From contig JAFCMP010000007.1 of NCBI GenBank assembly GCA_017506865.1, positions 372,001 through 436,000 of the forward strand: a DNA stretch of 64,000 bases. The letters are read 5' to 3'. The position numbers and the translations under genes were made by a program. How positions within the stretch are numbered: position 1 is the stretch's first letter; each line of letters opens with the position of its first letter. Under the pieces are notes generated by a model, which worked only from the letters and a program-made list of their open reading frames with translations, searched no databases and was not told where the DNA came from. Below are positions 1,500-59,383 of this stretch, piece by piece. This stretch comes from Tribonema minus. Its lineage: Eukaryota; Sar; Xanthophyceae; Tribonematales; Tribonemataceae.

Positions 1500-1832
1500 T
1501 CCTATTACAGTGGCCTTGGCCATGGAGGTCAGCACTTTTTTGACTGGTATGTAACACGAGTCATGCACAGTTCTTGCTGCAGGCAACCGTGTCCATCGCC
1601 CAGCACAACAGCTACAACGCATGCACAGTTCCAACTCAGACTCCCTCTGCCCGCCGCTTTCCTGTCACAGAGGGCGTAGCTATGGAGGTCGGACCGGGCC
1701 CCCAGGGCTACGCCATGGCCTTCCTGACATAGACTAGGTCATTCAAACTATTTGCTGCAGGTAACAGTGACCATCGCCAAGCACAATTACAACAATTACA
1801 GATTTTTTCCACTTGCCGCCTTCGTATCACAG
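1500..1832 (+). repeat. Tandem copies upstream of PAP2 exon 1
   Basis: A unit of about 165 bp recurs. Positions 1682-1720 repeat almost exactly the exon start at 1844-1882 (ATGGAGGTCGGACCGGGCCC). The copy then runs into a TAG stop. A more decayed copy lies near 1521. Each unit carries its own CAG acceptor-like site, so the working exon is the last copy in the row. Confidence 0.75.
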
Positions 1833-4800
1833 AGGCCTTAGCCATGGAGGTCGGACCGGGCCCCCAGGGCTACGCCATGACATTCCTGACTCACATCAAG
1901 GTCGCCACGTCGCGCGTCGCACAATTCGTGGGGCCCACGCACCTCGTGACGGTGCGCGGCCCCGTGACGCCGCGACTTGAAGATGCGGTTGAAGATTGGC
2001 GCCGGCGCATGCCGAACAACGCGCTGGTGGTCTTTGCGCAGGGCGCGACGACGGCGTCGGACGTCGTGATACCGTTTCAGAAGCGCATCTTCGAACTGCA
2101 GCGCGACAAGTGAGTTCTGGGGGGGTGTTCACTGGAGTACAGTGCACAGTGCACCCCACTACAATACGGTACAGTGAACTGGTCTTTGCGCAGGGCGTGA
2201 CGACGGCGTCGGACGTCGTGATATATTCTGGAGAAGCGGATCTTCGAACTGCAGCGCGACAAGTGAGTCGTAGGTCGTTGGTGGTCATGGCGGTGTAGCA
2301 TGCCATGTCACACACACGGTGGTAGCACTTGTTGCCTGTTGACTCTGATACTACCTACTTGGCTATCTGCAAACCGCTGTGACAGAGGAAGTGATGCTTG
2401 CTTGCTTAGTATGCTAGTGTCTATTAGTAGTAGTAGACCCTTCAATATGGCGGCAACACAAATTCTGGTTCCGGCTGACACGCTGTGATGATCCAACCGG
2501 AGACCTGGTCACCCAACTGCCAAGTCCCCAGCACAGCCTGTGACTTGGGTGCACCAAACTTCAAGCTGCGGTGTGCGGACTTTGCGCATCTTCTCATAGC
2601 AGCACCTCCATCTTGTGGTCCTCAACCTCTTGTTGCACTGTGTGCATCACACAGCAGCTTGCAGTGTGGCGAGGCCTCCATGGTGCCACCACGTCAATTC
2701 GTTGGCTGCAACTGCCTGTGCGGTGCTGCTGCAAGGCCGCCACCTATTTTGCAGTACTTCAACTCGACCTCTGCAACCACATTGCACACATGTGGTCGCG
2801 GCACCACGCCCCAGCCTCTGAGCACGCCAACTCCACATGCGAAATCTTTTCTATGCTGAAGTTGCACATGGCCGCTGCACCGCCGCCGCCTCGGGAGCGT
2901 CTTCCGCCCGGTGGCGATGGACCACTGGTCCCCGCTGCCGACCCACTCGCACCCAACTCCACATGCGCAATCCTATCAATGAACTTCAAGTTGATGTTGA
3001 GCGTTGCCGCTGCACCGCCGCCCCCGCGTCAGGAGCGTCTTCCTCCCGGTGGCGATGGACCACTGGTGCCCGCTGCCGTTCCACTCGCGCACCGCGACGG
3101 GAACGTTCCTCGGCGACGTTCTCGTCTCGCTCTTTATACCGTGGAGCGTGAGCACTGTCACGCTGTGCGCGCCGCTGAAGCGGGCGGCGCCGCAGGCGAT
3201 GGCCGACGCGTGCTTCGAGGCCGTGCTGGCGGCGAGCACTATCCCCAAGGTCGGCAGCTCACGTGAGTGCCGCAACGGCTGTTGCCGCAGAGTGTCGCTT
3301 GTTCTACTTGCGTTTAGAGCGCGAAAGAGGCCCCGGTGGAGGCGAGCATTGCCAGCCAGCCCACGCGAGTGACGCGACAGCTGTTGCACAGAGCGTCACT
3401 TGTGATGATGGCTGACTCGTGCTTCGAGGCGGTGCTGGAGGCGAGCACTGTCCCCAAGGTCGCCAGCTCACGTGAGTGCCGCGCCAATTGAAGTTGCACA
3501 GTTCCGCGCCAGTTGAAGTTGCATAGAGTGTCACCTGTTTGTAATGTCTTCGTTCGGAGTGTGAGAGAGGCGGTGCCTGGAGGCGAGCACTGCCCGCAAG
3601 GTCGCCATGCCAGCTCACGTGAGTTTTCAGCGCAAGTTGAAATTGCACAGAGTGTCACTCTGAATCAAATTGACTTTCGCAAGCTAGAGGCACGAAAAAG
3701 CCTGGATGATCACGCATTGCTACCAGGTACCAGAGCTCACTCAGCTGAACGGCACTGCATGGCTCAGTTTTATTGGAACTTGCTGTGTATTGAAAGTGCA
3801 AGTAGATTGTTACTTGACATTTTTTGTATTCGTATCAGGTAAGCAGACCATCATGTGCAGGGGGGCATTGACAAACGCGAGTGAGAAAAGAGCCGTGTGG
3901 CAATGATGCTCTGCAGCGCACTGAGGCTGCACCCAGCATCGCACCATATGGCAGAAAAGAAACCAAAACAGGAGAGATTTGATGACTGGCGCTGGCGTGC
4001 ATGATTTACATAGCGCTTGCCCTTTTTCCAGCGCCACAGATGTGGTCTGCAGAGCACTGACGAATCTTCAACTTTGCGTGCGCCCAATAGTGTAGTATAC
4101 CCTGAACACATATTCACGTATCTGTGCACTCACCGCGTGGTTAACAATAGCTCAACTGCGCGGTTAGCAATAGCTCATACCCCCCCGCCCCCCCGCCCCC
4201 CGCACTGCTCGAACTTCATCTTCGTGCAGTGACGCTCTTCGACAAGGCGCAGTGGGTGGGGCGCATCTCCGCGGGCCAGTACCCCGGGCACCGCACACTT
4301 GAACTTCGCATCTCGGAGGTTCTACAGTCCCTGCCGTGCCGCTGGCTGCTGCTGCGCGTTTCGCTGGCGATGCACTTTGCGCTGCAAGAGGCCTTTATTC
4401 TGATGGTCGGCGCAGTGGCGTTCTTCGCACAAGTTTCGCCGCTGGTGCTGACCTCCGTCGCCAGGTGCGTGCCGAACTTCAAGTTTTCTGCCCTCAAAGT
4501 TCAAGACTTGTAGCCACACGCAGGTGTCGCCGCTCGTCCTGACATCCGTCGCCAGGCCGCCCTCTCTGAACTTCAAGTTTTCTGCCCTCAAGTTCAAGAT
4601 TTTGTAGCCACAAGCAGGTGTCGCAGCTCGGCCTTACACTCTGTCGCCAGGTGCGATGGGACGCGCCCGCCAGCATTGCGGACACGTGTGCAGCAGTGGT
4701 AGCTGCAGTTGGGTGGGGGGAGGATGCGCTTAGGCGTGCCCTGTGTGTGCCCTGGGAGTTGTGGTATATGCGAAGGTGTCGCCGCTGGTACTGACCTCCG

Positions 4801-7800
4801 TCGCCAGGTGCGCTCTGGACTTCAAGTTTTCTGGCCACAACTGCCAGACTTGCAGCCACAAGGCAGCGTCCAATGCGTCAGCTCCATGGCCTGTTTGTTT
4901 GCATGTCGGCATGAATATGCCTCATGCTGTCATATATACATACGTATACTGACGTGTGTTGCCATGTACGATGGGCTGCGCTCAGGGGCAACCCTGTTTG
5001 TGCTGGGATAAAGGTGTGTACTGCACATGCTCTATGTGATGCAGTGTTTTTTGCCCTTCTAATACACTTCTATAAGTACGGTGGCCCTCAAGTGCAAGAC
5101 TTGTAGCCAGAAGGCAGCGTCTAATGCGTCAGCTCCATGGACTGCTTGTGGTAAATGCGCTTTGTGCATGTATGCATGTATGAATGAAAGCGAATCAAAA
5201 GATCGTAGAGCTCTAGGTGTATACGTATGTACCGCATGCATACTCATCTTGACATCTATTCGTATGTGTGGGGTTATTCCAACGGAATGTGCGACTGCCT
5301 TCCAGTTTGCACAGGGTACGGCCACCCTCTCCTGTTGCGCCTTTTGAAGCTCATCATAACTTCAGCATCACTCGTGCACTGCCTGCTTGCGCACAGGGCC
5401 GCAACACTGGTGCTGCTCTTCAACCACATCTTGAAGTTGTACTTCAAGATGCCGCGGCCGGCGTGGTCCCACCTCACCAAGCTGCGCATCAACCCCTACG
5501 CGCTAAAGCTGCACCAGTACGACTACACCTTCCCATCGGGACATAGCTCTTTCATGGTGTGCCTTTGGACAAGTCTGGCTGGTGCCAATGACGCATTTGG
5601 CTATGGCAACCCTGTGTACTTCCACGTCATCATGGCGGCGCTGACGCTGCTTACGGGCTTCACGTGAGTGCTTCTTTTCAACTTCGACTGTGGGTTTTCA
5701 ACTTCAACTGCAGGTGTTGACTGCTCTGTGTTTTCGCGAGCAAGCCGACGACGATGCGTTGGTTTTGGCAACCCTGTGTTTTTGCATGTCATTATGGCAA
5801 CGCTGATGCTCCCTGCGGGCTTTACGCAAGTTTTCCTTTCATTTAGGGCTGCAGATACGAATGCTGCTGTTGTGTGCTTGCTTGGCTTTGAAGCCTGCTG
5901 GCCCTGCAAACCATGCATACACATGGCAGCACTGGCGCTGCTAATCGGCGTCACGGTAAGTTCACTTACAGCTGGCAAAACTTCAAGCATCACGAGAAGT
6001 TTCTGGCGACTGAGCGCTGTTGCTCCACAGCGCTTCTTCATTGAAGTGGTCAAATGATGTCTTGCACTCTGAACTTCAGCTCTACATGGCGAGTGTACAC
6101 TGGCTGCATCATGGGCGTACGCATTGCGCTTTGATGGAGCAATGTTGCACGGTCATGATCAGCGTCACTTCACACAGCAGCGCTCATCCACCTGCCACCC
6201 CTTCTCTTCCCCCCTCCTCAAAGCCATTCACAGCAGCACACGCTATCTCGATCTTTGAGGGCATCCAACTTATATACCCCCCATGCCCCCCCCCCCCCCC
6301 CCTGCGCAGGCGCATGTACCTCTCCCTACACTTTGCCGGCGACGTCCTGGGCGGCTGGCTCACAGGCGCCTTAATAGGCTGGTTCTGGACGCACGATCTC
6401 AACGCCAAGTGGCTAGCGCTGGCGCCGTCTGTGCAACTCGGCTACGCCATCGGCTCGACAGCGCTGGCTGGCCTCATCTGTGTGGGGCTGGTGGTGTCGG
6501 GCATTGCTGCGGAGCGCAAGCGCATCGCCGCGTGGCGCAAGCTCGTGGGGGACGCCCTGCTGGACCCCCTCAAAGCGAGCCAGGTGCGTCAATGTTATAT
6601 AATACTTGAAGTATGAAGTTGAAGTATTAGTACGCCTCGGTGTACGTTGCATCAATATGTTATCAGCAGTTGCTGTCATCATGGACCACAATCTGTTTGC
6701 GTTCGTACATGGCCTTTGCGGTACAAATGTGGCCAATGCATGCATTGGTTCAAAGCTATCAGTAGGGTCAGGGCTGGGTGACTCAGGGTTGCTAGGGTTA
6801 GAGTTTGTGCGGGTCCTTGTCGGCTGCTTATCTGAACATATACTTTGATGCGCATTCAGTTGAAGTTTGTCACTTGGCGAACCCGCCGTGCTAGCGCCTG
6901 TCGTGCTGCTTCAGCCAGACCTGTGATGCACTGCACGCGATGGCCAGGTAGTTAGACCCAGGTGTACGCGGCGTGATATATATAAGACGCGGCATGATAT
7001 ACGCATGCCATTGATAGCGCGCTCATGTGCTGGCGTCGACATTTTCGCTCTGACGAAGCTCATCTGCTATGTGGAAGACTTGATTCGCGATGAAGAGGTG
7101 CAGTCATTGGGTGGATCCGTAAGCCTCACAGTGTGGTCAAATCAATCACGGTCTTGGCAAAAACGTGAACGTGTGAGGGCAGCTACCTAGCTGGTCAAGT
7201 TGCTAGGGCATTGGTGCAAGGCGCTAGCTGCAGACGAATAAACTGGGATGAGGGCTAGGGTGAGATTACTCTGCAGGTGTTATTTCATCATATGCTACCC
7301 AATCCGTTTCCTCACCACTTCTGTTTAGCCTCGTCTTTGCGCACGTCATGTAACCCTAACCCTAATCTCAACCCTAATGTACACCTAACCCTAAGCCCAA
7401 CATCGTGCATTCGACCTCTTTCTCTCCTGCGGCGGTACCTCGCAGATGGCTGCGGTACCTTGCAGATGGCTTTGGCGTACCCGCCCCAAACCCTAAGCCT
7501 ACCTTTTTCTAGCTATGAAGTACCAATACATACTCATACCCTCGTGCCCGCTGCCCTCCGCGCGCGCAGTGGCTGCTGCCGCTGGGCACGTCTTTGCCAG
7601 TGCGCCGCAGTACACATGCATCGCCACGTGTAGTAAAGCATCGTACTCAACATATCCTCCTGCCTGCCTGCTGCTGCGTCGCGCGCGAAGTGGCTGCTGC
7701 CGCTGGGTATGTACGTACGGCGACGTCTTCGCCAGCGCGCCACAGTACACATGCATCGCCACGTGTAACAAAGTATCGTACTCAACATACGCTCATGCCT

Positions 7801-9662
7801 GCTGCTGCACCCTAACCCTAACCCTGCCCCTTTCTATCTACGAAGTACCATACGCAACATACCTTCCTGCCTGCTGCTGCACCGTGCTCGTAGTGGCTGC
7901 TGCCGCTGGGCATGTACGGCGGCGTCTTTGCCAGTGCGATGCAGTACACATGCATTCTGCCATTGCGCCGCAGTACACATGGATCGCCACGTGTAATAAA
8001 GCATCGTTTTCAACACGTACCCTCGTGCCTGCTGCTGCACCGCGCGCGCAGTGGCTGCTGCCGCTGGGCATGTACGGCGGCGTCTTCGCCAGTGCGCCGC
8101 AGTACACCTGGATCGCCACCGACTTAAAGATCTACTTCCAGCCGCAGCCAGAGTATCTGCGCATATTGTACGTGGCCGTGGGCCTCATAGGGCTCGTTCT
8201 CGTCGCAGCGATATTCCTCGTGATTCCCAGGAACATTCTGCTGCGGCGCTGGCTCGTTGCTGCGACCGCGCGTCAGCAGCAGCAGCAGCAGTCCTTTGCG
8301 CGCCGGCGAGAAGAGCGCCAGCAGGCACCGGTGACCACGCTCGAAATAAGGTGAGCATTGCTCAGCAGAGTCTCAACGCAATGAGTTCAGTTCAAACACA
8401 TGCGCAGGTGGCTTTAGAAGTCGGCTCATGCAGCCTAGGTTACACCAAAAGTGGTGCACTGAGCGGCAGCGGCCGCTGGTGACCACGCTCGAAATACGGC
8501 GGGCATTGCTCAACACAGAATCGTCTCCATGTGCAATGCATGTGAACATTTGGCAGCTGACGCCAGTTTTGCAGGTGGCTTTCAAAGTTGGCTCATGCAC
8601 CCTAGTTGACACCGAACCGGCTCCATACGCAATGCATGCAAAAAAATGGCAGGTCACGTCAAAAATGTTGATGGCTTTGGAGTTCTCACACCGAAAGTGG
8701 CTGTGCTGTCATTTCAGCCCTCTCCGTTTGACGAGAGGATCCGTGCAGAAGCGGCAAGGTTCATTGCCACCACCATCAGTCGGCAGTACTTGCGCCACAC
8801 AACATAATATTTTCACTGTCGTGCTCGACATGGATACTGTCGATTATTTTGAGTCAATGTCTATTGCACAACTGAAATCATAGGTCCCCCTTTGCACCAA
8901 CGACCCTGGAATGTTCAAGTTGGTCAGGGGGTCACCGCCAGTGCGATCACCGCCGTTCTATTCAGTCTGAGCAGCATGCTGCTGTGGAACGCTGCTTGAT
9001 AGCCTACTGAGTGCATTGCTCGCCAACCTTGACAGCACCCTTGGCATCTGTGCCACATTCAGAAATCTACACCGATACCTACACACCCTCATCGCAGCAC
9101 GCTACGCTGCAAACCTACCTTATGTGCAGCACGTCGGCGCAGCCCACGGAGCAGATGAAGGCCATTGCGCAACCTTACACACCAGTGAACTGCCATCACG
9201 ATTCCGCATATCGTGCACCGATACCTAGTTACATACCCTCATTGCACGCCATTACATACCTACCCTATGTGCACCACGCCGGCGCAGCCCACGCAGCAGA
9301 TGAAGGCAACCTCACACACCAGTCAACTGGCATCATGTTTCCGCATATCGTGCACCGATGCTTACATACCCTCATCGCAACACGTGCATACCTACCCTAT
9401 GTGCAGTACGCCGGCGCAGCCCACGGAGCAGATGAAGGCCGTCGTCGACGACAGCCTGGCCATGCAAGAGGAGGGCAAGGTCCATGCCCTCGTCGCCACG
9501 GAGAGTCTGCGCGGCCGCACCTACAAGCCTGTGCGCGGCCTCAAGCGCGCCAAGGTGTTGGACGGCGCGCTGTTCTTCTTTGGCATCGCGTGCGTGCTCG
9601 AGTGGATCTTCGTCGTCTCGCCCATTGTGTTCTGGCAGATCAACAAGGTGTGGGCGCTCTAG
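1833..9662 (+). CDS. PAP2-type membrane phosphatase, 5' end not found
   Basis: Type 2 phosphatidic acid phosphatase superfamily, whose members dephosphorylate lipid phosphates in membranes; the exact substrate cannot be told. Proposed exons are 1833-2109, 3033-3262, 4230-4464, 5397-5664, 6310-6583, 8052-8350 and 9407-9662. All junctions are GT-AG and every phase joins without a frame break, giving about 612 codons before the TAG at 9660. The three PAP2 motifs are visible: K-x6-RP (KLYFKMPRP) at the start of exon 4, PSGH (FPSGHSSF) later in exon 4, and R-x5-H-x3-D (RMYLSLHFAGD) across the exon 4/5 junction, with Thr instead of Ser before the Arg. Hydrophobic segments surround the motifs, and further membrane segments lie in exon 6 (near LVLVAAIFLVI) and at the C-terminus. 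The roughly 250-residue N-terminal region has no domain I recognise. The true start may be upstream of 1833. Introns are crowded with decayed copies of neighbouring exon edges. Confidence 0.85.
2179..2264 (+). repeat. Decayed copy of PAP2 exon 1 3' end with donor
   Basis: This stretch repeats 2032-2117 (GTCTTTGCGCAGGGCG through CGCGACAAGTGAGT) with substitutions and small indels. The donor is kept. The working exon is the upstream copy. Confidence 0.85.
2893..2955 (+). repeat. Decayed copy of PAP2 exon 2 5' end
   Basis: It repeats 3033-3095 (GAGCGTCTTCCTCCCGGTGG and what follows) with point changes and stops aligning in the middle of the exon. It lies upstream of the working exon. Confidence 0.8.
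3339..3626 (+). repeat. Three decayed copies of PAP2 exon 2 3' end with donor
   Basis: Copies at about 3339-3374, 3420-3476 and 3571-3626 repeat the end of exon 2 (GAGGCCGTGCTGGCGGCGAG through CTCACGTGAGT). Two of them keep a perfect GTGAGT donor. The intronic sequence after each copy also recurs, including GCACAGAGTGTCACTTGT-like text and TTGAAGTTGCA. Confidence 0.85.
4523..5149 (+). repeat. Copies of PAP2 exon 3 3' end and adjoining intron
   Basis: The exon 3 end (TCGCCGCTGGTGCTGACCTC, then CGTCGCCAG) recurs at about 4523-4556, 4616-4652 and 4775-4815. The last copy is nearly perfect, including a GTGCG donor. Intron text beginning ACTTGTAGCCACA also recurs, and 4829-4896 is repeated at 5082-5149. 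Confidence 0.85.
5758..5960 (+). repeat. Two decayed copies of PAP2 exon 4 3' end
   Basis: 5758-5830 repeats the exon 4 end (GGCTATGGCAACCCTGTGTA onward). Many differences look like C to T or G to A changes at CG or CA sites, for example CACGTC to CATGTC. A second, more decayed copy lies at about 5886-5960 and ends in a GTAAGT-like donor. Confidence 0.75.
7350..7395 (+). repeat. Telomere-like CCCTAA run in a PAP2 intron
   Basis: Several CCCTAA units with variant spacing lie in the 3' half of the intron between 6583 and 8052. Further units lie at 7488-7500 and 7806-7826. The 5' half of the same intron has the opposite orientation (TAGGGT, AGGGTTAG) at about 6760-6805. Confidence 0.7.
7560..8000 (+). 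repeat. Three or four copies of PAP2 exon 6 5' end with acceptor
   Basis: The exon 6 start (TGGCTGCTGCCGCTGGGCAT and on to CGCCGCAGTACAC) is repeated at about 7568-7640, 7687-7770 and 7889-8000; the last holds a second partial unit. Each copy follows a CGCGCAG- or GTAG-like acceptor and then turns into the same ATCGCCACGTGTAA text, which differs from the working exon (ATCGCCACCGAC). The working exon is the last copy. Confidence 0.9.
8479..8625 (+). repeat. Copy of PAP2 exon 6 3' end and intron start
   Basis: GGTGACCACGCTCGAAATA from the exon 6 end recurs at 8479. The following intronic block GTGGCTTTAGAAGTCGGCTC (8408) recurs in diverged form at 8575. This is a donor-side copy. Confidence 0.75.
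9117..9308 (+). repeat. Two copies of PAP2 exon 7 5' end
   Basis: The last-exon start (CGGCGCAGCCCACGGAGCAG then ATGAAGGC), with its preceding ACCTACCCTATGTGCAG, is repeated at about 9117-9167 and 9258-9308. The first copy keeps CAG. In the second the acceptor has become CAC. The working copy is at 9407. Confidence 0.88.
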
Positions 9663-36359: not shown

Positions 36360-36367
36360 CATATCAG

Positions 36368-42461: not shown

Positions 42462-44019
42462 TCACGCTGCCGCGGCGTGCGCCTCCGCGACCGCCGCCGC
42501 CGGCGACGGCGCCGTGCGCTGCTGCTGCACCCACGGGTGCGCGAGCATCGCGGACGCCGTGGGGCGCGCGGACGGCGCCTTGGAGAGCGCGCGGCGCACG
42601 AGGTCGCGCGCTGCGGCGTCCACGTCGCCCCACGCGGCGTCGCTAAAGTCGGGCTCGTCGCTGACGATGCGCGCGAGCACGTCCTCCTCGCTCGCGTCGC
42701 CGCTCGGGTCGAAGGGGTGGCGCCCCGTGAGCAGAATGTACGCGACGACGCCGAGGGAGAAGACGTCCGCCGCCTCCGTCGCCGCCGCGGCGCCGCTCAC
42801 GACCTCCGGCGGCGAGTACGCGGCGGTGGTGGTGTAGTCCTTGCGGCGCGGGACGCCGGCGCGCGTGCGGAACGCGGAGCCGAAGTCCGCGAGCTTGACG
42901 GTGAGGCCGCCATTGCTGTCGTCGTCATCATTGACGATGATATTCTCCGGCTTGATGTCGCCGTGCGTGATGCCGCAGCGGTGGAGGTAGACGAGGGCGT
43001 CGAGGAGTTGCTTGAGGAGCGCCGAAGACTGCGCCTGCGAGAGCATGCCCCTGGTGACGAGCCTGTCGTAGAGCTCCACGCCGCGCGCAAGCTCCATGAC
43101 GATGTACCAGGAGGACTGGTCGCCGCCGACTGCGCGCAGCTGGATGATGTTTTTGTGCGCGGTTGCCTGCAGTGTCAAGCAAGCATAGGAGGACGCAAGG
43201 CAGGAAGCGGTGAGTAAGGCATGCTTTTCCTTTGTGGTGGACAATTGTATGTGTAGGACAGAGCTGCCAAGACTCTACAGCAATGTTTAGTGTGGACCGC
43301 TGAAGCTAAGCTGAAAAGGTGGACGAATGTATACATACATGACAGCTGCTATGGCTCTGCGGCATTAAGCCACGTGGAGAACGACTGGAGCTATACAACT
43401 CTGAAGCTGTTGATGGCAAGCAAACAAACCCCTACAGGCAAGCACGAATTGCATAACCTCCTTTTGCTGGAATACACAATCTACATGGCAAGCCATACTG
43501 CCAAACAGGTTTGTTGCCATGCTGCTAAATGAGCGGACTGAATCAGCAAACTGCCACCATCGAGGCTGCCAGACAACTGGCGTGTATATTCACCTGGAGG
43601 ATGCTGGTCTCGTCCTGGATTGCAGCCTCGCTCGACTTGCTCTTAGGCACCCTCTTGACGGCAACCAGCTCGCCAGTAGCCTGGTCCACCGCCTTGAAAA
43701 CGCTGCCGTAGTTGCCACCCCCCAGACATTCGCCATGGATGCTGTACCTCAGGGCGATGCTGTCGCTGAAATTGGGGGATACAAGTGCCGCCCGACACTG
43801 AGGCCGGGTCTTGACCTGCTCCTGCTGCTGGCTGTGGATGCCGAGGCCGACGAGGGCAGCGCCGATGGGTGCTGCTGCAGCGCCAAACAGCTTGCTGCTG
43901 CTGCCGCCGCTGTGTTGGTGGTTGTGCTGAAAGCGAGGGATGGCTGGCAGCCGAAGCCTGCCTCCCCTCTTGCCGAGCCTTGCCAGCGCCCTGACTGTTG
44001 CTGCTGCTGGTGTTGCCAT
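42462..44019 (-). CDS. Serine/threonine protein kinase, possibly organelle-targeted
   Basis: Two exons on the minus strand, 44019-43594 and 43166-42462, join in phase 0 and give 376 aa. The kinase domain starts near residue 98: P-loop GGGNYGSVFKAV, the VAIK-type lysine in VAVKRV, the alphaC glutamate in QDETSIL, catalytic loop HGDIKPEN, LADFG, SPPE in the APE position, ADVFSLGVVAYILLTGRHPF, and the RPTASAMLAHPWV end block. The arrangement resembles the CAMK/CDPK group. The usual HRD arginine is glycine (HGD), which removes the contact for activation-loop phosphate but is found in active kinases. The N-terminal 90 residues are Ala/Arg/Ser-rich with almost no acidic residues at the very start, then a hydrophobic stretch (AAAAPIGAALVGLGI); this could be a transit peptide or membrane anchor. 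No EF hands are seen. The promoter and first exon are duplicated at 48183-49403. Confidence 0.88.
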
Positions 44020-45040
44020 GGTATTGGCTTTGGAACCTGAGGTTTCCAGATGCGTGTGTCGTCGAATGAGTGTATGGTTCCGCTTATCACTGAATGCGCG
44101 CCTCGCTTGTGCTGTCTAGCTCTGTGTCAGCTGAGACTAGGGTGGCTGTGTGTCTGCCGCTTGCTTTGCTGCTGCTGTTGAGTGTCTGTGTGTGTGTGTG
44201 TGTGTGAATGGAGAGCAGTGTGCTGTGCTGTGCGAATGCGAGGTCACTAGAGGGTGTCATCGGAATCTGAGACGTCACGCGTGAGAATCAGCCAGGAATG
44301 ACTTCTGGGGCGCCGGAAAGACCCGAGAAGACGCGCAAGCAAGTCAGTGATGCATGAGATCAATTGAAGTTCGGTGATCGTTTCGCCGCAGAGCGCCTTA
44401 GTTGGTTACCTTTCGGGTGGCGATCACCGGGCGCTCGTCACCTGACGTACACGGAAACGCACGCGAGGGTCTGACCTCAGATTTAATCCCGTGGTCTTGA
44501 ATTTCCTACGCACGGCGCGAACTGAATTAGTGACCGACAGCTGCTTGCTGACTCAAGTTGCTGACGGCAAGTTGACGATAGTGTGCATGCGTACGCGAAG
44601 GTCCGTGCGCTGGTGTATCTATTGGATCTTTGGATATGGCCGCCATGAGCACTCATGTTTCAGTGTCTGAAGATGGGCAACGCCAGCCACCACATGACCG
44701 ACCAGCAATGGAGTGCGTATGCGTCAAAAAGGTTGGGGTGGCCAAACCATCCAACTTGAACTGGCTGAGCCGGAGTGCACTTGACTGGTGAGAGGCAGTA
44801 GTGCACCAACTGCTGCAACGATATGCGGATGAACAAGGCAGCGATTAACATGACGACGATCCCAGACATTGAGAGGAGTGGTGAAGAGGGGCAGCTGGGG
44901 AGGACACACTACCCTGTCCTTCCTCTGCATCTTAGCCAGCTGCAGCTTACAAGTTATTTTGCTGCGGTCGAAATTTCTCACTCAGCAGCATGTTGCAGCG
45001 TGTTGAGTGTATACGACAGACGCTGCTAGAGGGGAAATGA
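43822..45040 (-). repeat. Segmental duplication, parent copy (kinase exon 1 and promoter)
   Basis: This block matches 48183-49403 over about 1.2 kb at very high identity by eye, including exon 1 codons 1-66, the 5' flank, a (TG)n run near 44187-44205 and more than 800 bp of upstream sequence. Similarity falls off near 44900, with a short final match at about 45009-45035. Confidence 0.9.
44020..44999 (-). promoter_or_regulatory. Presumed 5' flank and promoter region of the kinase
   Basis: The region lies directly upstream of the kinase ATG and contains a (TG)n microsatellite. I could not identify a specific promoter element. It is conserved between both copies of the duplication, mainly because the duplication looks young. 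Confidence 0.35.
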
Positions 45041-48182: not shown

Positions 48183-49403
48183 CTGCTGCTGGCTGTAGAT
48201 GCCGAGGCCAACAAGGGCAGCGCCGATGGGTGCTGCTGCAGCGCGAAACAGCTTGCTGCTGCTGCGGCCGCTGTGTTGGTGGTTGTGCTGAAAGCGAGGG
48301 ATGGCTGGCAGCCGAAGCCTGCCTCCCCTCTTGCCGAGCCTTGCCAGCGCCCTGACTGTTGCTGCTGCTGACTGTTGCTGCTGCTGGTGTTGCCATGGTA
48401 TTGGCTTTGGAACCTGAGGTTTCCAGATGCGTGTGTCGTCCAATGAGTGTATGGTTGCGCTTATCACTGAATGCGCGCCTCGCTTGTGCTGTCTAGCTCT
48501 GTGTCAGCTGAGACTAGGGTGGCTGTGTGTCTGCCGCTTGCTTTGCTGCTGCTGTTGAGTGTCTGTGTGTGTGTGTGTGTGTGAATGGAGAGCAGTGTGC
48601 TGTGCTGTGCGAATGCGAGGTCACTGGAGGTGTCATCGGAATCTGAGACGTCACGCGTGAGAACCAGCCAGGAATGACTTCTGGGGCGCCGGAAAGACCC
48701 GAGAAGACGCGCAAGCAAGTCAGTGATGCATGAGATCAATTGAAGTTCGGTGATCGTTTCGCCGCAGAGCGCCTTAGTTGGTTACCTAACGGGTGGCGAT
48801 CACCGGGTGCTCGTCACCTGACGTACACGGAAACGCACGCGAGGGTCTGACCTCAGATTTAATCCCGTGGTCTTGAATTTCCTACGCACGGCGCTAACTG
48901 AATTAGTGACCGACAGCTGCTTGCTGACTCAAGTTGCTGACGGCAAGTTGACGATAGTGTGCATGCGTACGCGAAGGTCCGTGCGCTGGTGTATCTATTG
49001 GATCTTTGGATATGGCCGCCATGAGCACTCATGTTTCAGTGTCTGAAGATGGGCAACGCCAGCCACCACATGACCGACCAGCAATGGAGTGCGTATGCGT
49101 CAAAAAGGTTGGGGTGGCCAAACCATCCAACTTGAACTGGCTGAGCCGGAGTGCACTTGACTGGTGAGAGGCAGTAGTGCACCAACTGCTGCGACGATAT
49201 GCGGACACTGCGCCATGAACAAGGCAGCGATTAACATGACGATGTTTTCAGACATTGAGAGGAGTGGTGAAAGGGGCAGCTTGGACGACACACCATCATC
49301 TGACCCTGTGCCTACCAGTCATCTTTCGTACCCTGCTGCTCGCAAGCTTCTCAATCAGAAGGATGATGTTGTGTACCGACAGACGCTGCTAGAGGGGAGA
49401 GGG
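48183..49403 (-). pseudogene. Duplicated kinase promoter and first-exon fragment
   Basis: This is a copy of 43822-45040. The ATG at 48396 and the first nine codons (MATPAAATV) are intact. A 16-bp tandem insertion (GACTGTTGCTGCTGCT repeated) then shifts the frame, and the copy ends within exon 1 before the kinase domain, so no kinase can be made. It faces away from the Smr gene that starts at 49689, placing a second copy of the kinase promoter just upstream of Smr. It could act as a bidirectional promoter or make a non-coding transcript. High identity points to a recent event. Confidence 0.88.
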
Positions 49404-49688: not shown

Positions 49689-52600
49689 ATGGACGCTTTC
49701 ATCAAGGGCCTGCGCTTCGTGGTCAAGACCCTGCTGGAGTGCACATCGTCCACCAACGTCGCAGAGCCGCAGGACCAGCAGCAGCAACAGCAGAGTGGTA
49801 AAACTTATGATCCACAGCAGGATTACAAAGCGCCAGATTCAGAGGAGCAGGAGCAGTATAAGCCAGTGCGGCCAACTAGCACCGGCGATGTGGAGATCGG
49901 CAGGTTGACTCGCTACGACAGCAACATATGTGACTTCAAGCAGGTGCGCTGCAGCAACGATCAAATTTCCAACCCTACGGCATGACTTTGTATGCCGCTG
50001 CGTGAGCTGCAATACGATGTGCGAAGCTGCTCACACCCGGCCTGGACTTATTTTTCACAATGATGGAGCCTTAGACAAGATAATAACTTCCATATATGCG
50101 GTTGTGAAGGAGAAACTCTGCAGGTCATCTTGGCAGAAAGCAAAGGAGCAGCAGCAGCTGATGCCCTGTGAAACTTGTGAAACTCGCAAGCATTCACGCA
50201 GGGTTATGTAACATATGTTATGCTCCTGTGTCAATGCTGTATGGCTTTTGCTAGGCGCTCAGCACTCCACAGCCGCATTGATTCAGGGCGAAGGAGCTAA
50301 GCTTGATGTTTACACACTTGGCTCAGCTGTGTTGCGAGTTCAACTATTCGTCTGCAGAGTTGGTGTGCATGCCACGCACATGAAACCGTAGCTGCCACCC
50401 TGCCAATGTACACGGCTCGCACATTTCACCATAGTTGCTTCCCACTAGATGTGAGTGCTGGCAACACAGTCTTCATCTTGCTTCTTCTCATTCATGAAGT
50501 CAGGCAGCCAATGACATGCAGCAGGTGCCATTCACCGAGCGATGGTAAATGCCACTCAGCGCTGCAGGCAGCACATGTGCCGAAACTGTGCTTGCATGGC
50601 CAATTCCAGCGCCATTGACAATAAGCACCAGCGCATGATCTGATTGAATAATAACAACCAGCGCATGATCTGTTGCGCTCTGTCAGCCAGCAATGCAAAC
50701 GCTGTCGGCCCGAATGGGATCTGTTGCGCAATTTGCGATGTGCGCACATCTGCACGCACACGGTGCAAGCGTGCATATACCCTTCTTCGCACAGCTGCTG
50801 ATACGGCAGCACTTGAATTGGCAGAGTCGCGATTGTGCAGTGCGCACTGCGCTCTGCTGCCGCGTGATTGAAGTGCCTTGAATAACTATCAGCGTCAAGG
50901 CAGCCACTGGTACTGAATGCCCGTGCCCTCCGCTTGTGCCTGTTGCACGCCGTGTTTGACAGTTTGACAGTCAAGGCAACCGCATTTTCCCGGAGGCTGA
51001 CGCGTGCCGGGAGGAGGCAGACAGGGAGGCCAAGCTGAGAGGGGAGTGCTATGACCAGTCACAGGTGCGTGACCGCGCATGAACTAATCCTAACTCAAAT
51101 CGTAAGTCAAACCCTCAGCTGCCTTGACTAGTCGTAGGTGACCTAAGCCTAAACCTATCACTCAGTGAGGCCATGACTGTGATTCGTGAAGCCTGGACGC
51201 ACATCAGTGGTGTTGGTGAGCGCGGTGGTAATATGTGATTGCTGCACACATGCAGGCAGTCCGAGTCTGAGAGCACCACGACCATGCAATGTGGTTTATT
51301 GCATTTAAGCTCAGGGTACATGGAGAGTTTCAATCACTGCACATGCATTTGCCCCTTTCCCTCTACACTTCATATGCTTAAATTCAAAACAGATGTGCCT
51401 AGCAACTGGCCACGCGTCAGAGCCTCAGCCAGTCAATGCAGGGTTCCTCAATGCGCAGCCGACTGCGATGTCGAGCGCATACTTAGTGCTCGGGGTTAGT
51501 GTTAGGCTTGGGGTTAGGATTAGGGCAGGGGTTAGCATAGAGGCAGCCCTCAAGTGTGGTGGTGGGCCTTGCAAGTTCGCCATCAACTGCTCACTGTGGT
51601 CAGAAGCAGGTGCTGATTCATTGAAGATTGCAACACGAGCTCTGATGGGCCAGTGGTGGCGAGCTCTTGGCCGCCTCTCATCACTCCTAACCCTCACGTA
51701 ATCCTAGGTCGCGTGGCACATCACATGCACGCGCAGTAGTGGTATGGTTGCTGTGGTCCTCCATGTTGTGGTTCCGCGAGCAGCTTACGCTTGTAAACGT
51801 TCAGCTCTCAGTAGCAGACCCTCATCAGGCTGCAGGCTCTCAGATCATGGCCCTAGGGAGGGCAAGCAACGGCGAACCGCGTTGACTTCTGAATATGATG
51901 TCTGGTTTGTTAGGTGTCACTGTGTTAGGATTCATTGCCCTCTCTTATATGGTGCGCATGTGCAGGAGGCGTACAACGCCGGCGATGGCGCCAAGGCCAA
52001 GGAGCTGTCAAATAAGGTGAGCTCCTCCCACCTCCTCCGCCCTCACCTCTCTGGACCTTTTCCCGTGCGCCTGAACCTCCTGTGTGGAGCATGCAACGGT
52101 ACAAGAGTGCGCCTCCCCTGTTGGTTGCAGCATCAAACATAAACTTCAACTGTTACTATTAGGGCGTGAGCGGTGACGCAACACTCTACCGGAAGTGTGA
52201 GGGCAGGCAACAGTTGAGGTAGGCATGGCCACTCCTTGGACAAACACAGGCCAGTTTTGCACTTGAAGTTACGCCCGCCCTGCCCTAGCAAGCCGTGTTC
52301 ATCTGCACAGTGGCTCCCTGCCTCCCTGCGCTGTGCATCAAATCGCATCACACCACCATCGCAGTCGGTTGCGCCCTCCCTTGAACCAATTGCGTGCCCT
52401 GCAAATATCAGCCACTAACGTTCTCACTGCGGCCAGTCACTCGAATCTTCACATCCGCCATGTCCATGCAACTCAATCTCAGTCATTTACACCTCCACTT
52501 CCACCAGCTGCCACGCATCCAGCACCCAATCATGATTACAAGAGCGCAGGGCAAGTACCACGCATGCACGTCGAGGACAAGTACGCGCGCGTGCAGTTTG

Positions 52601-54148
52601 CGCCTGCACTGCACTGCCACCAAACTGTATGCAGGTCCAATCAACTGCATTCATTCATTCATCCACTCGTTCATTCATTCACGCGCGAGCGCAGGGCAAG
52701 GACCACGGCAGGCGCATGGAGGAGGCGAACGCGCGCGCGGTGCGCGCCATCGTGGACCCGCAGCGCGCGGAGGAGACGGGCTGCCTGGACCTGCACGGGC
52801 TGCGCGTGGCGGAGGCGGAGGCGGTTACGCGTGATTTCCTGCTGGATCACAGGAACAGGGGGCAGTTTGAGGAGCTGGAGGTGATCACGGGGGCGGGCAA
52901 CCACAGCACCAACCACAAGGCCAAGATCAAGGTCAGTTGCCGTGTTCGTAAAGTTGAAGTTGGTGTGGGCAGAGGAGTGGAGTGATTAGGTGTGGGTTTA
53001 GAGGATTGGAATGATTGGGGGTGGGTGACCACAGCACCAACCACAAGGCCAAGATCAAGGTCAGTTGAGGTGTAGGGGGGGGGTCATTCGCCATCTTACC
53101 ACTCTTGAAATTGGTGTGGGGCCAAGTTCAAGGCGGGTTGTCGTGTGGAGGCTGTCATTTGCGAAGTTGCCGATGCTGTTGAAGTTGGTGTGGGCAGAGC
53201 TGGAGTGATATAGGGGCAGGTGACCACAGCACCAACCATAAGGCCAAGATCAAGGTGAGCTGTCGTGTTCGCAGTTTCCGCTGCTGTTGACGTTTGTTTT
53301 GGCAGCACGGGCGGGTAATCACAGCACCCAACCACAAGGCCAAGATCAAGGTGAGTTTGGTTGTGGAAGTTGCCAGTGTTGAAGATGGTGTTGGCAGGAG
53401 GTGGGAGGTGATCACGGGGAAGGGTAATCATAACACTGACCACAAGGCCCGGATCGAAGTCAGTTGTAGTGTTCGCGAAGTTGCCGCTGCTGTTGAAGTT
53501 TGTTTTGGCAGCACGGGCGGGTAATCACAGCACCCAACCACAAGGCCAAGATCAAGGTGAGTTTGGTTGTGGAAGTTGCCAGTGTTGAAGATGGTGTTGG
53601 CAGGAGGTGGGAGGTGCTCACGGGGAAGGGTAATCATAACACTGACCACAAGGCCCGGATCGAAGTCAGTTGTAGTGTTCGCGAAGTTGCCGCTGCTGTT
53701 GAAGTTGGTGTTGGCAGCGTCCCGGAGCGGGTAATCACGGCACTAACCACAGGGCCAAGATCAAGGTCGGTTGAGTGTAGAGACCTGTTATTGCAAGCTG
53801 CCGATGCCATTGAGGTTGGTGTGGGCAGGAGTTGGAGGCGATCACGGGGAAGGGTAATGATGGCATCAACCAAAGGGCCAAGGTCAGTTGGTGTGTAGGG
53901 GATGTGATGACAGCGCAGGAAAAAAATGCAGGGGTTCTCTTGGCTGCTTTTATCACATGTACTTCGAAGTGCGTATACTTTGAAGCATGGTCAAGCCTGA
54001 CGCACCGCTGCAATCCTTCAATCTCCCCCCCCCCCCCTCGTTCTCCCCCTTGCAGCCCATGGTGGAGGACATGCTGCGCGATATGCAGTTCAACTTCCAC
54101 AGCAAGAACGAGGGCGCTTACGTCATCACCCTCAGCAGCAGGCAGTAG
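49689..54148 (+). CDS. DUF1771-Smr domain protein
   Basis: Five exons join in phase 0: 49689-49943, 50996-51064, 51966-52016, 52695-52931 and 54056-54148 (TAG), giving 234 aa. Residues 1-80 are a Gln/Glu-rich lead after MDAFIKGLRF. DUF1771 spans exons 1-4 (YDSNICDFKQ, then ADACREEADREAKLRGECYD, SQEAYNAGDGAKAKELSNKG, KDHGRRMEEANARAV). The Smr domain follows, with DLHGLRVAEAEAV, EELEVITGAGNHS, NHKAKIK and a C-terminal PMVEDMLRDMQF. The DLHG motif and the TGxGxHS motif typical of Smr nucleases are present. Related eukaryotic proteins act on RNA in ribosome quality control or bind poly(A)-binding protein; which applies here is unknown. Introns hold exon-edge copies, most strikingly in the last intron. 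A TATATTTTT stretch about 40 bp upstream of the ATG is a possible TATA-like element. Confidence 0.9.
51489..51534 (+). repeat. TTAGGG-like run in an Smr intron
   Basis: Several GGTTAGG and TTAGGG variants lie in the third Smr intron. The opposite form CCTAACCC occurs nearer the acceptor at 51686-51693. Confidence 0.7.
52540..52600 (+). repeat. Decayed copy of Smr exon 4 5' end with acceptor
   Basis: GAGCGCAGGGCAAGTACCACG and what follows match the exon start at 52688 (GAGCGCAGGGCAAGGACCACG). The AG acceptor is kept. The working exon is the later copy. Confidence 0.8.
53018..53890 (+). repeat. Eight copies of Smr exon 4 3' end with donor
   Basis: The exon 4 end (AACCACAGCACCAACCACAA, then GGCCAAGATCAAG and the GTCAGT donor) is followed by copies at about 53025, 53222, 53316, 53420, 53522, 53626, 53727 and 53848. 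Most keep a donor (GTCAGT, GTGAGC, GTGAGT or GTCGGT). A higher-order unit of 206 bp holding two copies (about 53300-53505) is itself duplicated almost exactly at 53506-53711. Spacer text between copies, such as GAAGTTGCCGCTGCTGTTGA, also repeats. Several copies would encode Smr-like text (GKGNHNTDHKARIEV). Confidence 0.95.
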
Positions 54149-54916: not shown

Positions 54917-57900
54917 ATGAGCGGCGCCGCGTACCTAGATCAGGCCAAAACATTTGCGCAGCATGATTTCGGACTGGACAGGAGATTAATCAAAGCTTGC
55001 GCCAAGGCAGGCTTCATCTACCCCACCCTCGTGCAATCCAAGTGCATACCGCTAGCCCTCAAGGGCAAGGATTTGCTGGTGAGGGCTCGCACGGGCAGCG
55101 GCAAGACCGCTGCCTTCGGCCTGCCCCTGCTGCAGAAGCTGCTGGCGCGGAGAGAAGCCGAGCCCGATCTGGCTGCTGCGGTCAGGGCAGTGGTGCTGGT
55201 GCCAACGCGGGAGCTGTGTGAACAAGTAAGGGGGCAATTATGGGAGCTTATGGCGTATTGCCGGGATATTGTGGGGCTATTGGCACTGGTGGACGACAAC
55301 ATGAGCGCGCAGCAGGCGCAGCTCAGGGACAAGCCTGACATCGTGGTGGCGACGCCCGCACGTCTTGTGGCGCACCTGAAGGTATGTAGCGATAGTGAGG
55401 TCGCGTCAAGCAATGGTGCTTTCATGGCTACGTGTGAGCCTGCGACTGCCAACATCTGGCTGACCCACTCGTTGATGGCGTTGCAACTGGCAACGCCATG
55501 CACCATAGATGCATGCTAGTGGTCGTCAGCATTTGTGAATGCCTTCAGCTTTAAGATGCAGAGAAGCGGCACCGCAAGCCACGGCTTCGGAAAGGTAGGC
55601 TCGCACTCGTCTTTAACTCTTGGCACATGCTGCATGATTCATTGTTGTTCTGCAGTCCCACTCTGCAGCAAAGTCTTGAATGTATCCTGCACAACATATT
55701 TTGTAGCGGTTGCTTATTTTCTTATGATGGTTTCACCTCAATGCGGGCTTTGGCTGGATACCCAGGCAGGCCTTGGAGGCAGAACTGTTGAATTTGCAAC
55801 AGAAAGACTGGGGCACTTGATGATGCGGTGCGCTGTCTTATGATGCGGCAAGAGTGCAGCGCGGGCCTGCGGCCAGCACCGCACCTGCGCTGCTGCGCTG
55901 GATCTCAATGTGCAACTGTGTGGCCACCGCAGTAACAGCGGCATCTCAGCGCAAACTTCACGCATGCAATATGCCTCACCGCCATCCATGCAGCACCTAT
56001 ACCTACCCTCTACGGACGTCAGAGCTCACGACACCGCCGCGCGCCGCCGCCCGCTTCGCAACCCACTTTCATACCCGGCGAACTCTATGTATACCTCAGT
56101 GGCATGCATACCTATACCTTCCCCTCCAGTTTAGCAGCACAGCAACATCACGCTGAATGACGCAGTGGAGACGCTACCGTACACCTACCCTCTGTGATTA
56201 GCAGCGCTCCCCCCCCCCCCCCGCCCCCCGCAGGCCGGCAACATCACGCTGAAGGACGCGGTGGAGGCGCTGGTTGTCGACGAAGCGGACCTCGTGCTGT
56301 CGTACGGCTACCGCGACGACATCCGCCACGTCACCGAGATACCTTTTTGACGCTGTCATCAACCACCTATACCTACCCTATGTGGCTCAGCAGTGCTCAT
56401 GCCCCTACCCCTTTCCTCCAGGCGGGCAACATCACGCTGAAGGACGCCGTAGAGACGCTCGTCGTGGACGAAGCGGACCTCGTGCTGTCGTACGGCTACC
56501 GCGACGACATCCGCCACGTCACCGCGCACCTCCCCAAGGTGTGCCAGGGGTTCCTCATGTCAGCAACGCTCAGTGAGGAACTGGAGGAGCTGAAGCGCGT
56601 CATCCTGCACAGCCCCGCGATATTGAAGTTGGAGGAGGGGGACGCCTCGGGGGGGGGCGAGGGCGGAGCGCTGCTGCAGTTCTTTCTGGCGCTGCGCGAG
56701 CCCGCCGATAAGAACCTCGTTGTGTTTGCGTTCTTGAAGTTGGGGCTGCTGGAGGGGAAGGGGCTGTTCTTCGTGAACGCGACGGACGCATGCTACCGCC
56801 TCAAGCTGTTCCTCGAGCAGTTCCACATCCGCTCCGCGGTGCTCAACGCGGAGCTCCCGCTGGCGTCGCGCCTGCACATCCTGGAGGAGTTCAATCGCGG
56901 CATCTTCGACTACCTCATCGCGACGGACGAGTCCATGGACGTGGGCAGCGGCGGCGCCGGCGACTCCGACTCTGAGTCTGACTCTGATGAGGAGGAGGAG
57001 GATGAGGCGGATGCTCAGGAAGAAGAGGAGGAGCAGCAGCGGAAGCGGAAGAGGGGGCGGAAGCGGCCGCGCGCGGGGGGGCCCAAGGGGGACGCGGAGT
57101 ACGGCGTGGCGCGGGGGATCGACTTCAGGGGCGTGAAGTTTGTGATGAACGTGGACTTCCCGCCCAGCGCGCGCAGCTACACGCACAGGGTCGGGCGCAC
57201 GGCGCGCGGCGGCGCGAGCGGCACGGCATTGTCGCTGCTGTGCGAGCGGGCGCCGGCGGAGGTGGCAGCGCTCGCCGAGGTGCGTCAACCTCAAGAAGAA
57301 ATGTTTTGAAGTAGCAGAGTCCAGGCAGTTCGAGAACTGTGCCATGCTGCAGTGCGGCACCGTGCTTCTGCTGCTGCGCGACACCGGCATGCTTCAATGC
57401 CGTTATTGCAGTGCTCAGCAAGTGTAGGCGCTTAGATGACTACCACATTGCGGCAGCGCTGCGCGCAACATTGGGGGCATGCGCATGACACGCATGACAA
57501 TTGTAGCCAGCATTTGCTGCTGTTCTCAGAGGTCTTGGTGCAAGTAGCTGTACTCATGAAGCGTGTGCGCACCCGCCCGTCCGCACACGCCTTTTTGGGA
57601 CCTGTCACCCATCAACACAACAGAGGGCTGCACACATGACTGTCCGTGCGCAGTGTGGTGGTCACTATCGATACAGTATAGTGATATATATTCAATCAAT
57701 TATGTTCACATGCAGGTGCAAGCCAGCCAACCGGCGCTGCCGCTGACGGAGGCGGACACGCTGCTGGGAGCGATAGGTACGGCGACAGCGGACGATGGCG
57801 TCAGCGCTCAGCTCAGCCGTGCGCAGCCAGCGCCTCTGGCATTCGACCTGCGGGAGATTGAGCAGTTCCGTTACAGGGTAACTGATGTGGCTAAGAAGGT

Positions 57901-59383
57901 GAGCTCATGCCTTCAATATGATGCTTGCACTGCTGGTTACGGAGTGGTCAGGCCTCGCTTTTGTGGGTAGTGGGCAGGTGGCCTGCATGTTGAAGCTGAA
58001 GCTGCAGTTGAAGCGGGCAAGCGGATTTACATGTACGCAGCGACGATGACCTGGCCTACCTCCAACAGTGTCACTGAGTGCATCGTGTGTGCGTGAACAT
58101 CTCACTCCAGACATTACTGCAACGGGTGAAGCAACGCAGCGAGTGCGCTATGGGCGCATTACGCCCCACGTCGAAGACGTCGTGAGAAACGAGCGGCGTT
58201 TGCCTTAGCACTGGTGCAAGCTGCAAGCTCACTGCATGGGATCCCAGTCGCACTGGCGCTGGGGCGAGGTTTACACTTCCTGCAGGTCGTTCCCAAACTC
58301 TTGTGCAAGTTGCAAAATACGCATTCGTCTCTGTGAATCTGTGTATGTTCTCTGCAATCCGTGGCCAGCTCATGCGACACACCGCATGTACTGTGACGCA
58401 TCCTCACAATGAGCCAGTGCAGTATTCTATATTCACGCGTCAGCGCGTGCGCCGCCCCTCAACTTTAACTTCAACAGGGTGACACGTGTCATGGTGCGCG
58501 AGGCACGCATGTATAGTGACGCATGCACGATGAGCAAATGCGAGATGTGCCCGCGTTAACGCGCGCGTGCCTCCTGCCTCTTACTCCTGTACAACTGCAA
58601 CTTCAACAGGTGACGCGCGTCATGGTGCGCGAGGCGCGCGCGTCCGGGCTGCGGCGCGAGCTCATCAACTCGCCCGCGCTCGACGCGCACTTGACATATA
58701 TATACTGTCCGATCCGTGACCAGCTCTGCGACACTCTGCATACACCTTGACGCATTCACAAAATGAGCCGATGCAATACATAATGCGTCACCGCGCGCGC
58801 TGCACTTCAACTGCAACCTCAACAGGTGACGCGCGTCATGGTGCGCGAGGCGCGCGCGGCCGAGCTGCGGCGCGAGCTCATCAACTCGCACGCGCTCGAC
58901 GCGCACTTCAAGTCCCACCCCGACGACCTCAGGGTCCTGCGCCACGACAAGACAGCGCTCAACCCCGCGCTCCGCCTCGACCACCTCAAGCACATACCAT
59001 CCTACCTCATGCCAGCGGGGCTCGCTACGGGGGAGGACCCCACGGAGCGCCAGGCGAAGCGCAAGAAGCGGAGGGGGAAGTGGGAGGGGGGGGGCGGGGG
59101 CGGGGCGGGGGGCAGCGACCCCTCGCGCCGCAAGGACAATGACCCCCTGCAGAACTTTGGGGGAAGGGGAGGGGGGGGCAGCAGCAGCGCTCCGCGCGTC
59201 ATGCAGTCCAGCGAGTTCACGGGGAAGGGGATGGCGGGGCGGCGGCGCTGGCAGGAGAAGCACAAGAAGGGGAAGTTTGCGTCGACGCGCAAGGGGGGGC
59301 GGGGCGGGGGCGGGGGCCGCGAGGAAAAGGGGGGGCGGGGGAGGGGGAAGCGCGGCCCCTCGACGTTCGACGTCGGCTTCTAG
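54917..59383 (+). CDS. DDX56: DEAD-box RNA helicase DDX56/Dbp9
   Basis: ATP-dependent RNA helicase of the Dbp9/DDX56 family, which works in the nucleolus on large ribosomal subunit assembly. Four phase-0 exons: 54917-55381, 56422-57279, 57716-57898 and 58826-59383 (TAG), about 687 aa. The motifs run in order: Q-motif region (FIYPTLVQSKCIPLALKGKD), ARTGSGKT, PTREL, ATPARL, DEAD in VVDEADLVLSYGYRDD, SAT, YLIATDES, RGIDFRGVKFVMNVDFPPSA and HRVGRTARGG. The LVLSYGYRDD extension and the C-terminal FRYRVTDV ... VTRVMVREAR ... HFKSHPDDLRVLRHDK ... LKHIPSYLMP are family signatures that separate it from other DEAD-box proteins. An acidic/basic insert of about 50 residues sits before RGIDF, as in relatives. 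The C-terminus is Gly/Lys/Arg-rich and probably binds RNA or targets the nucleolus. Introns 1 and 3 hold decayed copies of the following exon start. Confidence 0.95.
56138..56340 (+). repeat. Two copies of helicase exon 2 5' end, including the DEAD motif
   Basis: The copy at 56234-56337 repeats exon 2 from GGCAACATCACGCTGAAGGA through the DEAD box to GACATCCGCCACGTCACC with few changes, and has its own poly-C tract and GCAG acceptor at 56233. It then reads EIPF and a stop. A shorter, more decayed copy (AGCAACATCACGCTGAATGA) lies at about 56140-56175. The working exon at 56422 is the last. Using the 56233 acceptor would give a truncated protein unless spliced onward. Confidence 0.95.
58478..58745 (+). 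repeat. Two copies of helicase exon 4 5' end with acceptor
   Basis: The exon 4 start (CTTCAACAG acceptor type, then GTGACGCGCGTCATGGTGCG) is repeated at about 58480-58520 (decayed) and 58612-58692 (nearly perfect, reading VTRVMVREARASGLRRELIN). The second copy stays open until TGA at about 58748. The order of decay again rises with distance from the working exon at 58826. Confidence 0.95.

Follow-up and report, generated by a model that had tools for sequence, protein, structure and literature searches.

Introns of Tribonema minus contain tandem copies of their own exon edges and splice sites

When introns of the yellow-green alga Tribonema minus (Xanthophyceae) were compared with their flanking exons, many were found to contain direct copies of the neighboring exon edge together with its splice site. 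The comparison covered a 64 kb stretch of the assembly (158 Mb, 554 contigs), which is the whole stretch of DNA analyzed and is called the window here, and a sample of introns from elsewhere in the genome. These junction copies are confirmed to be real, to extend beyond the window and to be more frequent than random duplication predicts; the evidence is stronger than the preliminary description of the window could provide. We consider it probable that repeated tandem duplication concentrated at splice junctions, for the most part neutral, has lengthened the introns of this alga to a large part.

Junction copies in the window and in the genome

Self-comparison of the window revealed 61 direct and 2 inverted pairs of nearby repeats (less than 3 kb apart), and only 3 far pairs. 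Most of the nearby direct pairs fall in the introns of four genes, PAP2, RIIa-guanylate kinase (GUK), Smr and DDX56. For the edge search, up to 120 exon bases and 9–12 intron bases of each edge were run into the edge's own intron with a shuffle-based threshold. At this query length the search targets exon edges rather than whole exons, and the detection floor lies at about 20 exon bases. Copies of the exon edge and its splice site were found at 13 of the 28 edges tested in the four genes, one to eight per edge, which agrees with the preliminary count of at least 13 edges. Two more edges, GUK exon 3 (40074–40119) and the first PAP2 exon, were recognized by pairwise alignment and are not included in the 13. 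The preliminary description had named five genes with copies. Four of them hold, but the coiled-coil gene (20.3–25.95 kb) has no junction copies and shows only weak repeats within a coding-type stretch.

Junctions in the window were placed by inspection of a sequence whose repeats were already visible; only those of the genome sample are blind. This sample comprises 31 introns (62 edges) outside the window, 30 from kinesin genes and one from a DEAD-helicase gene. The loci were picked by domain matches alone, as neighboring exons of such genes, and the GT-AG junctions were fixed through reading frame, domain continuity and splice consensus, blind to repeats. Forty distinct pairs of neighboring exons were tried; the nine that were dropped gave no confident GT-AG pair (L019; one each in L070, L071 and L074; two in L072; three in L073). 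In L070 and L074, the pair that includes the first fragment was left out, and the L029 intron is one and the same as an intron of L071. Copies were found at 18 of the 62 blind edges. The combined set is 68 copies at 31 of 90 edges, again one to eight per edge.

The 45 introns together contain 132 direct and 5 inverted repeat pairs. In the blind introns, 39 of the 75 direct pairs span the junction where 11.5 are expected, and there are 2 inverted pairs. A scan of the genome loci as a whole gave 135 direct and 8 inverted pairs, in loci that overlap, with some DNA counted twice. Grouping of linked repeats gave 38 families in the 45 introns, and 32 of these (0.84) include the working junction. The strongest pair itself spans the working junction in 30 of the 38 families against 8.6 expected, and none of 20,000 random draws was as high. 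For the blind set alone, the best pair spans the junction in 17 of 23 families (5.4 expected). Because conserved exon halves remain recognizable longer, the test was repeated on pairs at least 88% identical. Among these young pairs, 11 of 16 families span the junction, with 2.2 expected, and the junction fraction is 0.81.

An independent view comes from 26 protein kinase loci. Where the kinase domain is cut off inside the gene, at a presumed exon end, copies accompany 4 of 15 ends (from three loci), whereas none of the 37 complete domain ends has one (P 0.005). Together with the blind introns, this supports the suggestion that the copies are a habit of the genome.

Introns with copies are longer than those without (median 935 and 593 bp; 24 and 21 introns). 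This is consistent with intron growth, and the idea of growth by junction-crossing tandem duplication put forward earlier is supported. An ordinary background of tandem duplication does exist. Six families lie only in intron interiors (36.9 kb of intron), and about 4–6 occur in the 24.5 kb of the window without recognized exons. The background is about as rare inside introns as in exon-less DNA; therefore the junctions add a large excess. The point that needs explanation is that duplications spanning a junction outnumber those in intron interiors, which are spared.

Structure and decay of the copies

The copies in the window, with the working junction of each edge, are the following.

1484–1890, plus strand: first coding exon of PAP2 with repeated acceptor-edge copies (1560–1728 against 1738–1890), seen by pairwise alignment and outside the 28 tested edges
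2110–2268, plus strand: PAP2 working donor 2110 and donor-edge copy 2180–2268
2883–3032, plus strand: PAP2 acceptor-edge copy 2883–2950 and working acceptor 3032; 2898–2927 is a mini-exon in the annotated protein
3263–3624, plus strand: PAP2 donor 3263 and donor-edge copies 3407–3481 and 3567–3624
4465–4812, plus strand: PAP2 working donor 4465 and donor-edge copies 4521–4556 and 4776–4812
5664–5826, plus strand: PAP2 working donor 5664 and donor-edge copy 5759–5826
7558–8051, plus strand: four PAP2 acceptor-edge copies (starts 7558, 7680, 7882, 7959) and working acceptor 8051; 7570–7599 of the first copy is an annotated mini-exon
8351–8508, plus strand: PAP2 working donor 8351 and donor-edge copy 8461–8508
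9118–9406, plus strand: PAP2 acceptor-edge copies 9118–9163 and 9263–9307 and working acceptor 9406
38834–39437, plus strand: three GUK acceptor-edge copies (starts 38834, 39040, 39235; about 200 bp spacing) upstream of working acceptor 39437
40074–40167, plus strand: GUK exon 3, single weaker acceptor-edge copy 69 bp upstream (83% over 46 bp)
52542–52694, plus strand: Smr acceptor-edge copy 52542–52591 upstream of working acceptor 52694, frame open through the join
52932–53886, plus strand: Smr working donor 52932 followed by eight donor-edge copies (starts 53017, 53197, 53309, 53396, 53515, 53602, 53724, 53827)
56142–56421, plus strand: DDX56 intron 1, two upstream acceptor-edge copies of exon 2 (56142–56175, 56231–56336); working acceptor end 56421
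58467–58825, plus strand: DDX56 intron 3, two upstream acceptor-edge copies of exon 4 (58467–58508; 58598–58692, 96% identical); working acceptor end 58825

The last PAP2 acceptor was taken as 9406 in the main counts and as 9419 in the divergence, codon-position, telomere, intron-length and array analyses; the totals are the same.

Acceptor copies lie upstream and donor copies downstream, with the working copy outermost. This rule was noted before and it holds, but it adds no finding of its own: tandem duplication that leaves the mRNA unchanged requires the working copy to lie on the side of the exon body, and the arrangement is not independent evidence. The gene models use these outer copies. 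The spliced DDX56 model is identical at 687 of 687 residues to the database DEAD box helicase of Tribonema minus (P0121), and both junctions agree. The GUK model matches a transcriptome protein (P0001) at 296 of 302 residues with both junctions exact. The sole backing of the Smr model is a clean open frame. The annotated DDX56 and transcript-derived GUK proteins use outer copies only and include none of their inner copies. The GUK gene (37285–40538) encodes a guanylate kinase that carries an RIIa domain fused at its N terminus, and the two-domain homologues listed include those of Pythium insidiosum and Nannochloropsis salina.

Each of the 68 copies derives from one edge and carries 20–112 exon bases plus the adjoining intron, so that the composition described earlier (exon part, AG or GT, intron part) stands. 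The copy nearest the working junction has a mean of 54 exon bp and lies 91–264 bp away (median 148). Donors and acceptors are alike, with exon parts of 58 and 51 bp and periods of 151 and 159 bp, respectively. The exon-side end is often constant to a few bases within a family (for example 66, 66, 66 or 52, 52, 51, 52), as expected if a single duplication was multiplied afterwards. In the Smr donor array the exon-side end switches between about 42 and about 62, and variation is larger in some families. The position of the duplicated unit is non-uniform (Kolmogorov–Smirnov (KS) 1e-5), a result that at first suggested centring on the junction. The detection floor and a ceiling on the tolerated exon length explain it equally, and it was not used.

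On pooled average, the exon part of a copy shows 11% divergence from the working edge, and an assembly artefact, unlikely at this level, was rejected as the main cause. Compared with the working exon, the copies mismatch at 8.6, 8.2 and 15.7% of sites at codon positions 1, 2 and 3 (1,988 sites, 15 phase-set introns), and the intron parts differ by 17–18%. The mismatch is low at constrained sites because only the copy changes there, while both sides change at free sites. This is how a neutral pseudo-edge next to a functional one is expected to decay. The splice dinucleotides are intact in 25 of 29 donor copies (GT) and 27 of 32 acceptor copies (AG). This count covers 61 of the 68 copies and omits those with an alignment ending at the junction, a bias that favors intact ones; the survival is about the neutral rate with some bias towards intact.

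The outer-copy model of PAP2 has a clean frame of 608 residues, whereas the annotated Tribonema minus protein has 638, with three extra stretches of 10 residues. The annotated protein could be reproduced exactly from the window with three small copy-derived exons (2898–2927, 3429–3471, 7570–7599), all flanked by GT-AG. In this structure, which uses 11 of the 12 PAP2 junctions of the outer-copy model, an exon ends at 3249 (donor 3250 replaces 3263), and 3429–3471 of the first donor copy serves as an exon. One donor implied for the mini-exons is poor (GTCCCC). Judged from the gene sequence, the insertions may be either copies captured as mini-exons, as in potato (see below), or the product of a gene predictor misled by look-alike sites. 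The decoy splice sites proposed earlier are thus skipped in annotated DDX56 and transcript-derived GUK, but in annotated PAP2 pieces of three of them are included.

Several other features were noted in the window and at the sampled loci. A 224 bp tandem duplication at 41109–41550, 98.6% identical and outside recognized exons, is a recent event of the background type. A 1.1 kb segment that overlaps the 5′ part of a protein kinase gene has a second copy 4.4 kb away (43822–44909 and 48183–49293, 95.6% identity). The protein kinases L045, L047, L057 and L068 are near-identical (95–99.8%) on different contigs, as are copies on C144, C223 and C278; these are possibly a dispersed segment or haplotigs. 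About 650 bp are common to the window (31768–32426) and the kinesin locus L018 (2794–3438) at 93% identity in opposite orientation, perhaps a dispersed element. An open frame on the minus strand (35236–36363) has weak similarity to hAT transposases, below the curated cut-off. Words of the GTTGAA/TTCAAC type (for example TTGAAGTTG) are over-represented in introns and exon-less DNA alike. No Rfam RNAs or tRNAs were found in the window.

Origin of the junction copies

Duplications could fall uniformly, with purifying selection clearing the exonic ones and conserved exon halves making junction copies look older and commoner. Repeats in intron interiors and exon-less DNA do occur, at about 0.16–0.25 families per kb, and the position of the working copy follows automatically. 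We simulated this neutral situation with uniform duplication, substitutions, indels, deletions and exons protected by purifying selection, at assumed rates. The simulated junction fraction was 0.24–0.32 for all pairs and 0.20–0.44 for pairs at least 88% identical, far from the observed 0.84 and 0.81, and the excess remains among young pairs. Stop codons serve as a further control, because a copy extending into the 3′ flank should do no harm there. None of the 23 stops judged complete is spanned by a copy, and 2 are among all 36 examined; for splice edges the count is 31 of 90 (P 0.0004 and 0.0006 for the two comparisons). The 23 complete stops come from 18 of 31 open reading frames (ORFs) examined, judged complete after the fact, and five window ORFs. 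The two copy-spanned stops (L053, L060) belong to genes with a domain cut by an exon end. The control is imperfectly matched, as most stops are from intron-poor genes and only five lie in the window and four in copy-bearing genes. On this evidence, a uniform background is an unlikely source of the pattern.

It is likewise improbable that duplication starts in GC-rich or transcribed exons and that selection leaves only the copies spilling over a junction. Coding-type sequence that tolerates change does hold tandem repeats of similar size (22394–22967, 138 bp period). However, duplication starting in exons predicts copies that span stop codons, at odds with the imperfectly matched stop counts above, and the complete kinase-domain ends are free of copies as well.

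The extra edges might instead be kept by selection, to help or regulate splicing or as mini-exons. Their GT or AG is often intact, in a few cases conservation is higher in the copy than in its spacer, and pieces of three are present in the annotated PAP2 protein. Yet the codon-position pattern and the ratio of exon to intron divergence fit near-neutral decay, with 136 exon mismatches against 168 expected in the 29 pairs with enough intron sequence, and the annotated DDX56 and transcript-derived GUK lack all of their copies. Retention by selection is therefore unlikely, and functional decoys were rejected as the main cause.

Mobile introns (introners, known across eukaryotes; PMC9860276) or some other dispersed element that inserts at splice sites were also rejected as the main cause and are highly improbable, since the copies are local, far repeat pairs are few, and similar sequence in many unrelated genes was not found in the window or, for DDX56, the only gene so searched, in the whole genome, where a 4.2 kb query returned itself and four short matches. 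Beyond these four matches, the whole genome showed no second DDX56 copy in which polymorphic duplications might be seen.

We thus favor recurrent, mostly neutral tandem duplication focused on splice junctions. A segment of about 150 bp straddling the junction would be duplicated in tandem. The spliceosome could keep using the outer copy, leaving the mRNA unchanged, and the inner copy, an exon edge with its GT or AG, would become a neutral decoy that decays like a pseudogene while the array expands by repeating its own unit. The trigger may be a mutational bias at exon–intron borders, most likely nicks in pairs, or staggered breaks, spaced by roughly a nucleosome, that are filled in and rejoined. 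Small tandem duplications have been shown to arise by fill-in and joining at breaks with 3′ overhangs (PMC8355091). Exon definition would let splicing pass over most decoys and would leave most duplications neutral, while some copies may be captured as mini-exons, as annotated PAP2 would indicate.

Several observations weigh against this reading. Many young pairs do not form a clean head-to-tail unit; in the pair 2028–2115 and 2180–2268, for example, the exon part is 97.5% identical but the alignment does not continue into the intron behind it. No motif was established at the breakpoints. The age gradient is weak, as the nearest copy is more similar than the farthest in only 12 of 18 arrays. 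One copy in L069 (turned; 4895–5186 against 4362–4662) has 0 mismatches in 66 exon bases at a spacer divergence of 21% (P 8e-5), a sequence pattern that suggests gene conversion from the working exon, or re-copying. The three copy pieces with GT-AG ends in annotated PAP2 make it unsafe to regard every copy as an ignored decoy. Favored fixation could produce the excess as well as a mutational bias. Finally, telomere-like inserts, a possible mark of repaired breaks, are not linked to the copies, with 6 of 24 copy-bearing introns and 4 of 21 others containing them (P 0.73).

These telomere-like stretches (TTAGGG/CCCTAA type) are present 23 times in the 36.9 kb of intron, on both strands, compared with 0 in the 24.5 kb of exon-less window DNA and 2 in 71.7 kb of 19 intron-poor loci. 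They are located at 6792–7826, 23492–23544, 24332–24348 and 51492–51697 in the window and in introns of L018, L022, L070, L072 and L073. A long TTAGGG array is also present at the left end of contig C2. In mammals, interstitial stretches of this type are presented as a sign of break repair (PMC2246262). Because they are not associated with the edge copies, they were not counted as support for junction-focused duplication.

More tentatively, splice junctions may be mutational hot spots, where a transcription- or splicing-coupled lesion at the border is repaired by a nucleosome-sized tandem duplication, so that introns would grow from their own edges and leave a series of fossil splice sites. 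In a further step, copies captured as mini-exons may come with new introns, such that the habit makes introns; the evidence for this step is one annotated protein, PAP2.

Comparison with known systems

Intron lengthening is commonly attributed to transposons or to indels of unexplained origin. Here, most of the recognizable local growth could be traced to the intron's own edges. The divergence of the copies provides a built-in clock, and the constrained working copy a built-in control. Two questions become testable in a single alga, namely if DNA is marked for breakage by splicing and how the spliceosome passes near-perfect copies of its sites. For annotation, the database PAP2 protein with its three copy-derived 10-residue insertions represents either new mini-exons or prediction errors.

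No report of pervasive junction-anchored duplication was present among the matches listed from the open-licence literature (titles and abstract starts, with most subscription journals outside). The closest case is the potato RdRp gene, where a single tandem duplication across an intron–exon boundary created an intron (PMC4974935). In potato, too, the duplicated segment runs from the 3′ part of an intron into the 5′ part of the exon after it, splice signals included, and annotated PAP2 is much like it in that pieces of copies become small exons flanked by new introns. The potato case is one event. In Tribonema, direct copies with exon edge, splice signal and intron flank are present at tens of edges (the 31 of 90 given above), donors as well as acceptors and often in multi-copy arrays, and no new exon appears in DDX56 or GUK. 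In the classical model, tandem duplication of exon-only sequence makes a new intron (PMC3443670). Local tandem duplication supplies copies bearing splice sites in both cases, but the unit in Tribonema is exon plus intron.

Gao and Lynch (2009) reportedly found internal gene duplications with intron creation, some at exon–intron borders, in many eukaryotes. Unlike these, the Tribonema copies are partial edges, concentrated at junctions and, as far as two genes show, mostly absent from the mRNA. The human gene 6-16 (IFI6) is said to contain a minisatellite at an exon–intron border in which each tandem unit carries a splice donor. That is one locus, whereas in Tribonema many genes are involved, with donors and acceptors and units of about 150 bp. 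Boundary-crossing duplication is thus already known, and what is unusual here is its prevalence and its preference for splice junctions.

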